Below, piece by piece: positions 2,507-24,481 of a stretch of 33,515 bases of DNA; the first letter of the stretch is position 1; each line of letters opens with the position of its first letter. The translations under genes and the position numbers were made by a program. The notes under the pieces were generated by a model. The model had not been told where the DNA came from. It saw only the letters and a program-made list of their open reading frames with translations, and made no database searches. The stretch lies in assembly GCA_029246505.1 (NCBI GenBank), contig JAQWNC010000015.1:211662-245176 (forward strand). Direction: 5' to 3'. This stretch comes from Arenicellaceae bacterium. Lineage in GTDB: Bacteria > Pseudomonadota > Gammaproteobacteria > Arenicellales > Arenicellaceae.

Positions 2507-3550
2507 CCTGTGTTTAAAGGTGCACCAAGTCGACTAGTTCTTTCAGCGAGCTATCTCTTGTTTACGGTTTTTGTTATAGAAGTTTTGGCAAGGTCATTGG
2601 TGCCTGTTGATTTACTTATCCACAATTTCTTTGGTCGAAGTGAGACTGTGTAGAGACTCGCTTGGGTGCAGGATATTGAGAATCAGACCGAAAGCGTTAA
2701 TTTTGTGCTGGATCAACACGACAACGCTCTTGGTTGGCGTTTAAAGCCCAATCTGGATTTACAGTATTAGGACAACAAAAATTTCAAACCAATAGTTCTG
2801 GAATACGGGGGGATAGAGAGTACTTGATTACCGCTAACTAAGCGATAACTAGAGTTGCAATGATAGGCGGCTTTTTACTCTGGGTGAGGAGGTCCGAGAA
2901 ATAGAAACATTTTCTTATCAACTACAGAAGTCATGAATTTTGGCGTCAGTGGCTACAGTATTAATCACATTTTATTATATATGGAGGACACCGTATTGCT
3001 GTATAGGCCCGAGGTGGTCGTAATGGGGTTTGTTCAGGACAATATGCGTCGCATCATGTGGCGTTTTCGGCACCACAGTAAGCCATTGTTAGTGCAAAGG
3101 GACAATCAGTTAGTGGCAACAAACGTACCCGTAGCAGATAATGAAACTATACTAGCGCAAGAAAAATATAGATTACGGAGTTGGGACACACTAAAGGTAA
3201 TTTGGGATGAAATACGTTGGCGTCTGGGACACTTTTAGGCAGATATGCTCAAATTGAGGGATTTGATAATGGCTCGGTTGCTTTTTGAAATAGACACAAT
3301 CGGCGCTCAAGCTGATTTAGTTTATTTACCTCATAGCGAGGACCCCTATTTGACATATGATCAATTCTATTCCATTGAGGAGCAGTACTTTGATCGTTTG
3401 TGTGAGGAGAAACAGTTAAGGTGTTTGAATCTTCGAGGTGAATTTCAACGCGAAACTTCGTTAGGCTATCAAATGAGAATTGGTGGACATTGGTTTTATA
3501 ATGGGCATGCTTCAGTAACGAAAGATATAAAATCATTTCTCGAAGCCTAA
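2507..3550 (+). pseudogene. Decayed SGNH/GDSL-type hydrolase gene
   Basis: No frame is intact, but joining three frames rebuilds a recognisable membrane-anchored SGNH hydrolase. Frame from 2507: a hydrophobic anchor (SYLLFTVFVIEVLARSLV), then DNALGWRLKPN. Next frame, from about 2782: FQTNSSGIRGDREYL and TRVAMIGG. Next, near 2874: FTLGEEV and ETFSYQLQ. Last, from 2933: NFGVSGYS, PEVVVMGFVQDN and, near the end, GGHWFYNGHASVTKDI, which holds the C-terminal His block of the family. Lesions seen are TAG at 2651, TAG at 2768, TAA at 2839, at least three frame changes, and TAG at 3236 in the final frame. Such proteins are usually de-acylases or esterases at the cell surface, often in polysaccharide clusters. 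The two remaining open pieces (2933-3238 and 3245-3550) are one frame split by the 3236 stop and should not be annotated as separate genes. Confidence 0.82.
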
Positions 3551-8714: not shown

Positions 8715-10721
8715 TTATCCAAGCAATGGCGCAATTACTAGACTAACAATAGCCATTACATTAATTAGAATATTCATCGACGGGCCAGATGTGTCTTTAA
8801 ATGGGTCTCCGACCGTGTCGCCAACTACAGCGGCTTTATGCGCATCAGAGCCTTTACCACCGAGGTTGCCGCGTTCAATATATTTCTTGGCGTTATCCCA
8901 CGCCCCCCCTGCGTTAGCCATTGTGATGGCAAGAAACACACAACCAAGTAGCGCGCCGCCAAGCATGCCACCTAGAGCTTGCGGGCCTATTCCCAGGCCG
9001 ACGACAACTGGTGCCGAAACTGCGAGAACGCCGGGCAGCACCATTTTCTTTAGTGCTGCACGGGTTGCAATGTCCACACAACGTTCAGTATCTGGTTCGG
9101 CATTACCCTCCAATAGGCCCGGTATTTCCTTAAACTGTCTACGAACCTCTTTGATCATATCGAATGCGGCATCCCCGACTGCCGTCATAGTGATACTGGC
9201 AACCAAAAATGGGAAGATGCCGCCGATAAACATACCGATCAAAACCATCGGGTCGTTAATTTGTAGTGAAAAATCCTCGACTCGAGATGATACAACTTCA
9301 ATATAGGCACTAATAATGGCGAGCGCTGCTAGTGCCGCTGCGCCTATTGCAAAACCTTTGCCAATTGCAGCGGTAGTATTTCCAAGCTCATCCAAAGAAT
9401 CGGTAATTTTTCGTGTGTCTTCGCCAAGACCGGCCATTTCTGCAATGCCGCCTGCGTTATCTGCAATTGGGCCGTATGCATCGATCGCCATAGTAATGCC
9501 GACGGTGCCTAACATACCGACTGCAGCCATACCAACTCCGTATAAGCCGGACAATTCTGTTGATAGGAAAATTACCGCACAAAGCGTAAATACCGGAACT
9601 ACTACAGACTGCATACCAATAGCAAGACCAGCAATCATGACAGTGGCCGCGCCCGTTTCTCCGGCTTTAGCAATATCACGAATTGGTTTGCCAGCCGTAT
9701 AGTATTCGGTAATTAGTCCGATAATAGTGCCGCCTACAGCGCCTACAACAACTGCGCCCCAGACATTACTGCTTACGCCTAATTTACCAATTACAAAATA
9801 TGCAGCAGCGATAAATATAACCGTAGCACCAATGGTTCCTGAGCGAAGGGCTTTTTCGGGAGATGAGCTAGACATTAGTTTGACTAGAAGTATTCCTCCA
9901 ATCGAACACAGTAATCCAAGCGATGCCAGCCCCAATGGCAGAAACATAAGCATGTTCTGAGGGCCAAGTTGATTAAGCCATTCGGTATTTAGCGTTGCGG
10001 CTATGGCGATTGATGCAATCATTGCCCCACAATAAGATTCAAATATGTCCGATCCCATACCAGCAACATCGCCAACATTGTCACCGACGTTATCTGCAAT
10101 CACCGCTGGATTACGCGGGTCATCTTCAGGAATACCCGCTTCGAGTTTGCCCACTAAATCAGCACCCACGTCTGCGCTTTTCGTAAATATTCCACCGCCG
10201 ACACGTGAGAATAGTGCCACACTGGAGGCGCCCATGCCAAAGCCGTGAATTACCTCAGAACCGTGCGGGTCCGCACCAAAGAAAATATATAAAATACCTA
10301 AACCGAGTAAACCCATAGAGGCTACGCACAAACCCATTACCGAGCCTCCGAAGAATGCAACGGTAAGAGCTTCTGGAGCACCTTGCTCGTGTGCAGCTGT
10401 GGTGGTGCGCACGTTTGCTTTAGTGGCAGTAAACATGCCCATATAGCCAGCAATAGAAGAACAGGCTGCTCCAAGTAAGAACGCGTACATGGTGTTCAAG
10501 CCTAAGTCTGATACTGCAATTAAAACCGCAACAATGGCCACAAAAATACCAAGAATTTTGTATTCAGCGCGTATGAACACCATTGCGCCAAGGTGAATGG
10601 CATCGCCAATACTGGCAACCTTTCCGCCCGCACTCGGGTACTTAACTACAATGGAATAGACCACTAGTGCGGCAACTAACCCGATGACTCCTAAAATGGT
10701 CGGGATATACATCAAAGACAT
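8715..10721 (-). CDS. hppA: Membrane-bound ion-translocating pyrophosphatase, K+-dependent type
   Basis: The 668-residue polytopic protein couples hydrolysis of pyrophosphate to pumping of H+ or Na+ across the membrane. The substrate-binding loop [23 protein letters not shown] starts at 184, followed by [12 protein letters not shown] (210-221) and, near 417, [15 protein letters not shown]. At 447-454 the sequence is GNTTAAIG: Ala, not Lys, after GNTT plus Gly three residues on is the mark of the K+-dependent subfamily. Glu228 (IFESY) is the TM6-type gate glutamate of that subfamily, which includes Na+ pumps and K+-dependent H+ pumps, so the ion cannot be decided. A Shine-Dalgarno (AAGGAG) eight bases upstream supports the ATG at 10721. 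It is divergent from a broken soluble pyrophosphatase gene. Confidence 0.96.
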
Positions 10722-10844
10722 TTATATTTCTCCTTAGTGATTAGATTTCCCTAAAAAGTACAACGTAAATAACACCTACTATTATCAGGTGCTATAGCGG
10801 AATATATTAGGGGATAATAAGCGCTTATATTGCGCTGTAATTCG

Positions 10845-10850
10845 TATAAT
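10845..10850 (+). promoter_or_regulatory. Candidate -10 element upstream of the ppa remnant
   Basis: A consensus TATAAT lies 28 bases before the ppa ATG in the hppA/ppa divergent spacer. No good -35 hexamer is seen at 16-18 bases; the nearest upstream stretch is a small AAGCGCTT palindrome at 10819-10826. The -10 call therefore rests on one hexamer only. Confidence 0.3.
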
Positions 10851-10878
10851 ACCGCACTTTTTCCTGAGTACCACACTC

Positions 10879-11383
10879 ATGCAGCTCGATAAAGTCAATC
10901 CTGGCATTAACTCGTCAAATGATATTAACGTTATTGTTGAAATTCTGCGGTATGGCCTGGCTATTAAATACGAAGTAGACAAAGAAACCGGCGCTATGTT
11001 TGTCGACCGCTTCATATCTCCACCCATGCATTACCCGTGCAATTATGGGTACGTTCCGTATCCGCTATCTGAAGATGGTGATCCAGTAGATATTTTGGTT
11101 ATTACCCCTATTCTACTGGACGTAGGCATGTAGGCCCGGTTGTACGATATCGGCCTTTAGGGATACTGTAAATGGAAGATGATGCAGAAATACTGGCGGT
11201 ACCAGCCAATAAACTTACTAAACTATATGCCCGACGAAAGGGTTATACGGATATAGATCCTGAATTATTCATTTTTTTTGAACACTATAATAATCTTGAA
11301 GATGGTAAATGTTAGAAAGTTGGGCTGGTTTAGAAGCTGCGCAAAAGGAAATAATTAACTCAATTGAGCGTTATAGCGCATAG
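10879..11383 (+). pseudogene. ppa: Broken soluble inorganic pyrophosphatase (family I)
   Basis: The first 84 codons (to a TAG at 11131) encode the N-terminal half of a family I pyrophosphatase: IKYEVDKETGAMFVDRF, YPCNYGYVPYPLSEDGDPVDILV. The Asp residues of GDPVD and the Tyr/Asn of the YPCNYGY block are active-site positions. The rest is still readable in other frames. From 11151 a second frame gives RPLGIL, a TAA at 11169, then MEDDAEILAVPANKLTKLYA and FFEHYNNLEDGK. From 11312 a third frame gives WAGLEAAQKEIINSIERYSA and the natural stop at 11381-11383. The gene therefore has at least two frameshifts plus a nonsense codon, and the EILRYGLAIK segment also departs from the usual sequence. The protein would lack half of the active site. 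It is divergent from the intact membrane pyrophosphatase. Confidence 0.9.
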
Positions 11384-11416: not shown

Positions 11417-12364
11417 CTATTTTTTCTCGTCGATTAAGGAAGTATGCTTTGCTCTTGGGTGTGCCTGGTCATAAATTTTGGCCAGGTGTTGGTAGTCTAG
11501 ATGTGTATAAACCTGGGTCGTGCTGATATTGGCATGACCTAAGAGTTCTTGCACGGCTCTTAATTCTCCGCTTGATTCGAGCAGATGGCTGGCAAAACTA
11601 TGGCGGAACATATGAGGGGTGACTTTGATATTCATGCCTTGACGATCAGCCCACATTTGTAATCGGCGTTGTACCGTTCGAGGATTTATTTCTTTTCCCT
11701 GCTTACTAATAAAAACGGCGTTAGTGTTGTCTTTTACAAAACGAACACGATATTTCAACCAATCTTTTAAAGCGATTAAGGCGTGCCGACCAATAAGCAC
11801 CTCACGAGTTTTTTGTCCTTTTCCAGTTACTCTGGCCAATCCTTCTGAGAGGCTTAATTCGCTATTTTCTAGGCTACACAATTCAGCCAGTCGCAAGCCT
11901 GAGGAGTAAAACAATTCCATGATTGCTTTGTCTCTGTAGCTTAGGGGGTCCTTTTCATTTAGTGGAATTTCGATTAATTTGGTTAATTGTTCTACATCCA
12001 ACGTTTTGGGTAATCGTGACGGGTTTTTTGGCGCACGAATATCTATAAATGGATTCATAGATGCCTTATTGTGTTGGCATAACCAGAAAAACAAGCTACG
12101 CAAACCTGATAAGGTCCGTTGCACGCTTTTTGGTGCCATACCCTTGCCATTTAAACTAGCTGTGAATCTACGCGCGTGGTGGGGGTTTAGCTCAGCCCAC
12201 AGTTTGATATTATGTTGGGCTGCGTATGCCAGCAGTTTACTTATATCAGCTTGATACGCGGTAAGAGTGTGGATTGATAGGCGCTTTTGAATGCGAAGGT
12301 GTTCGATAAAATCGCTGACCTCTCCTATTACAGCGGTTGTCGATCGTTGAGATGCTCTCGTCAC
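11417..12364 (-). CDS. xerC: Tyrosine recombinase XerC
   Basis: The 315-residue product is a Xer-type site-specific recombinase that, with XerD, resolves chromosome dimers at dif. The N-terminal SAM-like DNA-binding domain spans about 12-100. The catalytic domain holds Arg158 (SSGLRLAEL), Lys182 (TGKGQKTR), His251 and Arg254 (HMFRHS), His277 (LLGHANIST) and the nucleophile Tyr286 (QVYTH), so the full set is present. The start is a GTG at 12364, two bases after the stop of the DUF484 gene, and the gene order dapF - DUF484 - xerC is standard for gammaproteobacteria. This context favours XerC over XerD or an integrase. Confidence 0.95.
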   Translation of the reverse strand: MTRASQRSTTAVIGEVSDFIEHLRIQKRLSIHTLTAYQADISKLLAYAAQHNIKLWAELNPHHARRFTASLNGKGMAPKSVQRTLSGLRSLFFWLCQHNKASMNPFIDIRAPKNPSRLPKTLDVEQLTKLIEIPLNEKDPLSYRDKAIMELFYSSGLRLAELCSLENSELSLSEGLARVTGKGQKTREVLIGRHALIALKDWLKYRVRFVKDNTNAVFISKQGKEINPRTVQRRLQMWADRQGMNIKVTPHMFRHSFASHLLESSGELRAVQELLGHANISTTQVYTHLDYQHLAKIYDQAHPRAKHTSLIDEKK

Positions 12365-14476: not shown

Positions 14477-15149
14477 CTAGTCATATGTTCCTGCGCAGCA
14501 AGCGAAGAAGTTCGGGTTGATTAGCGATTACGTATTGTATTCAAGTTTTTGCATGGGATGTTGTAGTAAGGCGCCACTAGCTTCGCGCAATATAATATCA
14601 GCGTCGGCTGTACTCCCTTCGTCGGTTGGCCCAAAGCTTGGGTAGAGGATCAGACCGTAATTTTCGCCTATCTGACTGAAAAATAGGGCGTCGTAGATGC
14701 GTAGTATCGAGTGCTCTCAGTCTACAAAGACTCTGAGCGTGGGAAAATATCAGGCGGGCCAAACTAACCGTTAGGTACTACCAGTGTAAACACGGGTCAT
14801 GAATTCAGTGTTCGTTGGGGTGACCATCTCCAGCAGAGATGCTGGTCAGGAATCATCTTAAAAAATCTCTGGTTCCGTCCAGCGGGCCAATTCGCGAACA
14901 GATCGATCACTTTGCTCTATCCGTATACGGTATGTTTTGAGACTCTTCAGAGAGTACTGGCACGCCAGGTAACAGTTTGTCTAGTCCAGTGATAAGAATA
15001 TCATGTGATGATATATCGGCTTCAGTAACGGGCGAGCCGTCTTTCTTGGTTTCTGTCTTAAAATCCTGACTGTAAATGGTTAGAGTGTCTTCACAGGTAT
15101 GCCGGGCTAAGGCGGATAGCGGTGTTATAAAAAAGGATAGCTCGGTTAT
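14477..15149 (-). pseudogene. cysQ: Decayed 3'(2'),5'-bisphosphate nucleotidase gene
   Basis: On the minus strand, residues beginning near 15149 read ALARHTCEDTLTIYSQDFK, then DGSPVTEADISSHDIL and PGVPVLSEES, the N-terminal half of CysQ. A TGA at 14909-14907 interrupts it. The same frame continues with GPLDGTRDF, the metal-binding DPLDGT motif with its first Asp changed to Gly, then meets another TGA at 14855. The middle (about 14690-14850) is not recognisable. From about 14690 another frame gives YPSFGPT, DADIILREASGALL and, after a TAA, SLINPNFFACCAG to the end at 14477. CysQ removes PAP made during sulfate assimilation. The natural start seems lost (ATA near 15149). It is divergent from yrfG, a common neighbour of cysQ and nudE; no nudE is seen here. 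Confidence 0.85.
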
Positions 15150-15207
15150 AGTGCTGATATGACAGGAAAGGGACAGCTGCTTATAATAGGGTTTTATTTT
15201 ACGTGAT

Positions 15208-17683: not shown

Positions 17684-18045
17684 ATGAATACTGTGTTTGA
17701 AAATATGACTGACTTTTTTTACGCACCCTGTGGTTTCGCACCCAGCCGCGCTCGCTGAGGTCGGGTAAACGGTTGATCGATGATCAGGTTATCGATCATT
17801 CTCATAAACCAGTGTTTTATACCGTGTTTGCAGTTGGAGCGATTTGCCGATTTCGGAGATTTGGGCCGTCAAGTGTGGATTATGAAATGATGGGTTGGGT
17901 CGAAGACCCTGAGTTTCGTGAGCAGGCCGTGCATTTTTTGAACCGAGAAGTTTATTTAGCGTTCGAAAAATCAGGAATAGAAATACCCTACTCCAAACAA
18001 CATCTATATATTAAATCTTTGCCTGATCAGGAGCGAATCGCGTAG
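17684..18045 (+). pseudogene. Internally deleted MscS-type mechanosensitive channel remnant
   Basis: The last ~65 codons before the TAG at 18043-18045 read FRRFGPSSVDYEMMGWVEDP, then FLNREVYLAFEKSGIEIPYSKQH, the C-terminal cytoplasmic domain of MscS-family channels. A likely original start is the ATG at 17684, with AAGGG upstream, encoding MNTVFENMTDFF. There a run of seven T shifts the frame; reading past it gives THPVVSHPAALAEVG, then a TAA. The membrane domain and pore helix, at least 150 residues, are missing between about 17763 and 17800. The open frame from the ATG at 17773 alone has no membrane helix and cannot be a channel. The N-terminal assignment is inference; the C-terminal similarity is clear. 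Confidence 0.65.
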
Positions 18046-24005: not shown

Positions 24006-24481
24006 CGACACTGTCCCGGCAGGCTATCAGGGGGTGTCAGTTAAGATCTCTCCTGCGACATTCATCCCGGCGGGGATCTCATCTTGACCACAGACCCTGG
24101 AAATTGGCTAGTCTGGTGAATCGTAAACATATAAAGGCCTGGCCGAGAATATTTTGCCGACCAGCGAAGGATGAACCTTATTGCCCAGTGTTAGGTGTTT
24201 CGCCCCTTCTGATATTTTCGCTTGTTTGAGGTATTTTCCAATAATTCGCTCTGGCTCGGGAAGGCCCGCGGCTTCATTGTCAGCGGGAAATTGTTCGTCT
24301 ATTGCATAAAGTGTAGCAAATTCATCTTGGTAGGTGCTCAGTAGGGCAAGGAATTTCAAGACCTAAATTTGGGGAACCTCGCCAGTATAGCGACTACTCC
24401 AACCACCGCCATCAGTTCTAATAATGTAAAGCCGCGATAAGTGCGTAGCTCTTTAGGAGTCTGTGATGTAGTTCTAATCAA
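24002..24481 (-). pseudogene. Broken type IV pilin gene
   Basis: Read on the minus strand from a TTG at 24481, a prepilin leader with a basic end (TPKELRTYR) is followed by GFTLLELMAVVGVVAILA, the classic peptidase site and N-terminal helix of type IV pilins with Glu5. The frame is lost at about 24360-24385. A second frame reads LLSTYQDEFATLYAIDEQFP and HLTLGNKVHPSLVGKI to a TAG next to the DSPD codons, then VCGQDEIPAGMNVAGEILTD. A third frame restores TPPDSLPGQCR and a stop at 24002-24004, giving the two C-terminal cysteines of the pilin loop. Damage is at least two frameshifts and one nonsense codon. The intact product would be about 160 residues. The TTG overlaps the TGA of the upstream M14 peptidase gene, so the two were translationally coupled. 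Confidence 0.88.

Follow-up and report, generated by a model that had tools for sequence, protein, structure and literature searches.

The locus described here raises the question of how a bacterium can do without a soluble pyrophosphatase, a textbook essential enzyme whose gene, ppa, is essential in E. coli, and of what then disposes of the pyrophosphate (PPi) from biosynthesis. In the window, i.e., the whole stretch of 33,515 nucleotides of an Arenicellaceae bacterium that was analysed, a broken ppa lies divergently next to an intact gene for a membrane pyrophosphatase, hppA. The genome it belongs to (G000) comprises 2.64 Mb in 30 contigs and is 97.5% complete, and the flanks of the locus are syntenic with those in the related genomes G002, G003 and G005:

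8715-10721, minus strand: hppA, membrane pyrophosphatase of 668 aa, intact, K+-dependent type (GNTTAAIG), with TM6 motif (PF03030, motifs)
10722-10878, no strand: intergenic region between the divergent starts of hppA and ppa (sequence, open reading frames)
10879-11383, plus strand: ppa pseudogene, family I inorganic pyrophosphatase, in three reading frames (PF00719 profile, DNA alignment, translations)
11417-12364, minus strand: xerC, conserved flank of the locus (TIGR02224, 341.6 bits versus a cut-off of 335.15; synteny)

The initial annotation had described a ppa with two frameshifts and a TAA, all three frames of which read as pyrophosphatase up to the natural stop, and its coordinates proved to be correct. 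The gene starts with the ATG at 10879, the open reading frame of the first frame runs past the first piece to a TAG at 11131-11133, and the natural stop is the TAG at 11381-11383. In a profile search the two main pieces match PF00719 (E = 3.3e-20 and 1.2e-5), and tblastn likewise yields pyrophosphatase matches on three pieces. Lesions were called from a DNA alignment with the intact ppa of six relatives, which allows for the distinction of the following parts, all on the plus strand:

10879-11118: first in-frame piece, 80 aa, YPCNYGY and DGDPVD kept (PF00719, E = 5.5e-20)
11119-11135: first frameshift zone, 8 bases more than in the six aligned relatives (DNA alignment)
11169-11171: TAA in the second frame (alignment and translation)
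11180-11181: loss of 12 bases, in frame, within the catalytic acidic loop (DNA alignment, invariant columns)
11273-11274: 12-base in-frame deletion directly before FFEHY (DNA alignment, invariant columns)
11311-11312: 7-base deletion, the second frameshift, at the KW motif (DNA alignment)

The damage to ppa is therefore real but had been understated, as the two 12-base deletions and the changes at invariant sites had been missed. Compared with 28 of the 31 genomes of the order having an intact canonical ppa (G041, G046 and G031 being absent from this reference, the last because the motif search gave no frame), 13 of the 64 invariant alignment columns are altered or absent in the window, versus 0 to 5 when each of the 28 intact genes is left out in turn. 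The affected residues include two lysines, K105 (now E) and K143 (now N) in the numbering of G002, which we equate with catalytic lysines of the E. coli enzyme. The invariant lysine after HY of the FFEHY region is an Asn. In the same alignment, the pieces are 61% identical to the G002 protein, versus 73-80% between G002 and 16 intact proteins of genus g3. The ppa of the window is thus confirmed as a broken gene, the homologous remnant of a family I ppa at the syntenic place, in which no single open frame spans the domain and active-site columns are lost. A recoded or frameshift-tolerant enzyme is ruled out, since invariant residues of the catalytic loop are missing too. Although the window stems from an assembly of 30 contigs and 97.5% completeness, it is extremely improbable that the cell carries an intact ppa and that the frameshifts arose in sequencing or assembly, given the 13 of 64 invariant residues altered or missing, the two 12-base deletions, the 8- and 7-base indels, the excess dN outlined below and the undamaged state of 49 of the 51 loci that could be compared on this contig; sequencing error in particular is rejected on the pattern of substitutions at invariant sites together with the multi-base in-frame deletions.

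With G002 being the nearest relative that has an intact ppa at the locus, the age of the loss can be bracketed by nonsynonymous divergence, synonymous sites being saturated or nearly so in these comparisons. For hppA, dN is 0.143 between the window and G002 and 0.161 between G002 and G003, and for the two parts of ppa it is 0.184 and 0.367 between the window and G002 versus 0.103 and 0.152 between G002 and G003, i.e., an excess over intact pairs of roughly 0.1 in the first and 0.2 in the second part. Because of this excess the loss is not a strain-level event: it postdates the split from G002, yet is old enough for many substitutions to have accumulated. The initial description of the loss as recent accordingly holds in that it followed this split, but not in the sense of a very recent event.

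Intact canonical ppa genes were found in 31 genomes of the order, four of which (G007, G013, G024 and G034) are without an hppA match. In 24 of the 27 with both genes, the two are divergent neighbours with 292-500 bases between the domain matches, the genes of the other three being on separate contigs, so that an intact ppa, for which the initial annotation had proposed to look in close relatives, does occur at the same place beside hppA, including the syntenic G002, G003 and G005. The locus of an uncultured Arenicella sp. (CANMNN010000008.1), present in two records (G003 and L078) with 100% identical ppa, has the same gene pair and flanks as the window, its ppa being intact whereas that of the window is broken; Arenicella is placed in the Arenicellaceae, Arenicellales, by the NCBI taxonomy. 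In G001, a genome of the same genus that is 88% complete, no PF00719 match was found; the assembly is interrupted on either side of the locus, contig C13 terminating in xerC and C175 inside hppA, and this genome is therefore uninformative on ppa at this place.

Remnants of ppa upstream of hppA were searched for by tblastn at 68 loci besides the window, 54 from order genomes in which hppA but no ppa is matched (57 in total, of which G001, G090 and G105 were omitted, as their contigs end there) and 14 from genomes with some ppa match. Such remnants were found in G021, G053, G060 and G062, and a reversed-sequence control of this upstream search gave no ppa match. Another PF00719 match is present elsewhere in G021, G053 and G062, and none in G060. 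Since, of the 54 scannable genomes that match hppA but not ppa, G060 alone retains a remnant, most losses of ppa in the order are old. In G021, which belongs to a different family of the order, the ppa beside hppA (L140, 3598-4124) is independently frameshifted and near full length, its usual start is lost and the tyrosine of HFFEHY is replaced by Asp. A weak tblastn match inside the hppA of G021 (E = 0.008) was taken as chance, as was the single weak match obtained for an hppA remnant at the ppa loci of the hppA-less G007, G013, G024 and G034 (in G024; E = 0.001, 25.5% identity over 94 residues).

In turn, the divergent neighbour hppA is intact with its motifs, as had been claimed: its 668 open codons cover positions 1-645 of 645 of PF03030 with 836 bits, and its translation carries GNTTAAIG as well as DNVGDNVGD, which we take to be the membrane pyrophosphatase signature. 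By sequence it resembles the solved plant and Thermotoga membrane pyrophosphatases. With Ala instead of Lys in GNTT(A/K)A, a position that we equate with K/A12.46, it falls into the K+-dependent subtype, and the glutamate located three residues past the aspartate of GMGSD in TM6 is presumably position 6.53. With respect to the transported ion, the protein matches the NCBIfam 'sodium-translocating' model and passes the cut-off of the V-type H+ model too, and the ATP synthase c subunit on the same contig reads, by our assumption, as H+-type. In the available part of PMC6882861, residue K/A12.46 is assigned a role in the K+ dependence of membrane pyrophosphatases, and glutamate 6.53 is tabulated for H+, Na+ and Na+/H+ pumps alike.

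A second soluble pyrophosphatase, which the initial annotation had named as a possible refutation, was not found in the 97.5%-complete window genome, where PF00719 matches the pieces of the broken gene only, so that there is no further family I enzyme, and DHHA2, representing family II, is without a match. Membrane pyrophosphatase thus appears to be encoded by the sole pyrophosphatase gene of family I, family II or the membrane type in this genome. It is quite unlikely that PPi is handled by a soluble enzyme of another kind, or by one encoded outside the assembled sequence, with HppA in an auxiliary role only: the assembly may lack about 2.5% of the genome, and some order genomes of family f2 hold a second, longer family I enzyme, but G000 itself has no other family I or DHHA2 match, and DHHA2 was found in 0 of the 109 order genomes. 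The longer enzyme of f2 (L234, L235 and L237) is a divergent family I pyrophosphatase of about 200 aa with the motif WRPHPWHGLEVGP, separate from canonical ppa; judging by match length and score, G028 and G066 of family f9 may carry a longer non-canonical enzyme too.

A further enzyme acting on PPi is encoded in the window genome about 64 kb from hppA:

G000:C17:155485-156423: PPi-dependent 6-phosphofructokinase (NF010675, 634 bits versus a cut-off of 273)

It carries NGGGDS and PKTVDND, i.e., Asp and Lys at two donor-site positions, which we take to mark PPi as the donor. Phosphofructokinase (PFK) matches are present in 100 of the 109 order genomes, donor type having been examined in G000 alone, and in many of them, e.g., G060:C14, G048:C1 and G044:C3, hppA and the PFK gene are no more than a few kb apart.

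From these observations it is probable that ppa became dispensable by way of HppA, with a contribution of the PPi-dependent PFK, and that the cell relies on HppA for most of its PPi hydrolysis. The ancestor would have had ppa and hppA as a divergent pair, an arrangement still present in most of the family members sampled. As HppA and, to some extent, the PPi-dependent PFK can remove biosynthetic PPi, the soluble enzyme would have become dispensable, and the dispensable ppa would then have decayed into the multiply broken pseudogene. HppA most likely hydrolyses most PPi at the membrane, part of the energy presumably being kept as an H+ or Na+ gradient, and the PPi-dependent PFK would be a second possible sink. 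The expression and activity of HppA, its share of the PPi load and the pumped ion are inferences here, as is whether the loss of ppa was neutral or selected. The proposal of the initial annotation that the pump may have taken over the whole PPi load, and so couple biosynthesis to membrane energisation, is partly supported.

The relative weight of the two sinks might also be reversed, PPi being used mainly by the PPi-dependent PFK and other users and the loss of ppa saving it for glycolysis. The PPi-type PFK of G000 and the PFK matches in 100 of 109 order genomes (PPi as donor in G000 only) are consistent with this, and a soluble pyrophosphatase has been argued to be futile alongside PPi-based glycolysis (PMC7657619, available part). 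However, PFK matches are near-universal in the order, with or without ppa, and therefore do not explain which genomes lost ppa, and in the gluconeogenic direction the enzyme produces PPi (PMC4287430, available part), so that a main sink in PFK is rather unlikely.

A takeover of PPi hydrolysis by HppA can be compared to several known systems. The membrane pyrophosphatase of R. rubrum is of the K+-independent type. In engineered E. coli, the R. rubrum H+-PPase replaces the essential ppa according to the available part of PMC9959109, and the first step of such a takeover is therefore feasible; this strain resembles the window genome in that the membrane enzyme is the only known pyrophosphatase of a gammaproteobacterium, but it is artificial and depends on the R. 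rubrum enzyme, whereas the window case is natural and of the K+-dependent type. Organisms with a membrane and without a soluble pyrophosphatase are known (PMC7657619, in part), such as Clostridium thermocellum and Thermoanaerobacterium saccharolyticum, which share with the window genome a membrane pyrophosphatase, a PPi-dependent PFK and the lack of a soluble enzyme. These are thermophilic anaerobes for which the available part of PMC7657619 mentions no decaying ppa, whereas the window genome is that of a gammaproteobacterium with a ppa remnant beside hppA. According to the same part of that paper, yields of C. thermocellum, where a soluble enzyme is absent, were unchanged after deletion of its membrane pyrophosphatase, and other PPi sinks can thus suffice. 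Gammaproteobacterial symbionts and methanotrophs also combine PPi-dependent PFK and membrane pyrophosphatase in one genome; in the Solemya velum symbiont the soluble enzyme is kept beside the PPi-dependent PFK, in contrast to the window genome, where it is lost and about 64 kb separate PFK from hppA (PMC4287430, available part). The window case is therefore a further example of a known replacement, and its special value is the mid-decay stage.

Neutral decay in a shrinking genome would not involve any functional shift, and it overlaps with the takeover by HppA. On the 245-kb contig, two of 51 comparable loci (genes having a relative at least 30% identical in the stretches of G002, G003 and G005) are broken, namely ppa and a cysQ-like gene, and the other 49 are without frame change or stop. 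The latter gene (14480-15152, minus strand), which we name cysQ by assumption, belongs to the inositol monophosphatase family and occupies two frames with five stops, versus an intact gene of 276 aa in G002 (PF00459, E = 1.5e-4, under the curated cut-off). Three other places in the window look like gene fragments. At 2933-3547 (plus strand), two open reading frames in the same frame and without a Pfam match are split by a stop at 3236-3238, perhaps representing a decayed gene; at 17773-18042 (plus strand), a short open reading frame weakly resembles the C-terminal end of MscS (PF21082, E = 0.054, under the cut-off), with no upstream part seen; and at 24008-24480 (minus strand), the start FTLLELMAVVGV, which we read as a pilin-like motif, is in one frame and an open stretch in another, possibly a broken pseudopilin.

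Since the nearby cysQ-like gene decayed too, part of the loss of ppa may be due to general gene loss, and these three apparent fragments as well as the genome size of 2.64 Mb, compared to 2.7-4.9 Mb in members of genus g3 that are at least 85% complete, point in the same direction. General decay as the whole story is nevertheless unsupported, with only two of 51 comparable loci broken, and G002 keeps an intact ppa with a genome that is smaller still (93% complete, 2.0 Mb). Furthermore, several lineages of the order have lost canonical ppa, and as ppa is essential in E. coli, a substitute must have preceded its decay. Neutral decay without a shift in function is therefore somewhat unlikely.

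How often ppa was lost can be estimated from gene content. Both families are matched in 39 of the 109 order genomes, ppa only in four, hppA only in 57 and neither in nine, where the 39 include the broken ppa of the window and non-canonical genes, and completeness goes down to 60%. With the order set restricted to the 31 genomes of at least 95% listed completeness, 12 are without a ppa match (G022, G029, G030, G038, G039, G043, G047, G048, G050, G060, G076 and G081), all of which have hppA and two of which (G043 and G048) consist of a single contig. G051 and G069, belonging to one genus and being 92 and 93% complete, match neither ppa nor hppA.

In a tree of HppA with 43 rows (38 order genomes and five named loci, with full-length hppA from part of the 96 order genomes having a match, families f4, f6 and f10 absent and the K+-independent-subtype rows G029, G023 and one copy of G028 omitted), intact versus lost canonical ppa requires four state changes, three of them forced by well-supported branches. 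Synteny suggests that canonical ppa is ancestral beside hppA, and if so, it was lost five times: in the window, in f11, in f2 together with f7, in f3 and in part of f9. A takeover of PPi hydrolysis by the pump is plausible and would seem to be recurrent in the order.

The class set comprises 187 genomes with a listed completeness of 95% or more, among which both families are present in 80 (the window included), ppa only in 70, hppA only in 26 and neither in 11, so that 37 are without a family I match, 11 of these being also without hppA; only family I and hppA were counted here, and some ppa-less genomes may carry family II. An intact ppa is missing in 27 of 106 genomes with and 11 of 81 without hppA (p = 0.066, Fisher's exact test, kinship ignored and the window counted as lacking), and in the unfiltered order set, which holds many incomplete genomes, in 58 of 96 and nine of 13, respectively (p = 0.76). 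A tight mutual exclusion of ppa and hppA is therefore unsupported; a membrane pyrophosphatase may ease the loss of ppa, the class-wide link being weak. Genomes without a soluble pyrophosphatase have been termed rare examples (PMC8575175, available part), a statement on which the 26 of 187 near-complete class genomes with a membrane pyrophosphatase and no family I match have some bearing, even though family II may be present in some.

More tentatively, and with somewhat less than an even chance, there might have been a repeated switch from soluble pyrophosphatase to a PPi-powered ion pump in the order of Arenicella, perhaps in the Gammaproteobacteria, each time proceeding from an ancestral pair of adjacent genes to the loss of the wasteful soluble enzyme, with the window caught in mid-decay. 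If true, ordinary marine bacteria would be using PPi to carry energy. The series of loci in which the same hppA lies beside an intact, a decaying or an absent ppa also poses the questions of whether a membrane pyrophosphatase is by itself enough to drive biosynthesis and under which conditions saving the energy of PPi benefits the cell. A literature search, in which subscription journals were thinly covered, found no paper on Arenicella together with pyrophosphatase and, among the titles and abstracts listed, none on the present case. With respect to the wider occurrence of the gene pair, a near full-length ppa (at least 170 residues matched) lies close to hppA in nine of 80 named loci, including Cycloclasticus, Methylophaga and a Mariprofundus bin; the pair is divergent in seven of the nine, and L057 and L094 have both genes on one strand; L058 and L078 duplicate order genomes already counted above.
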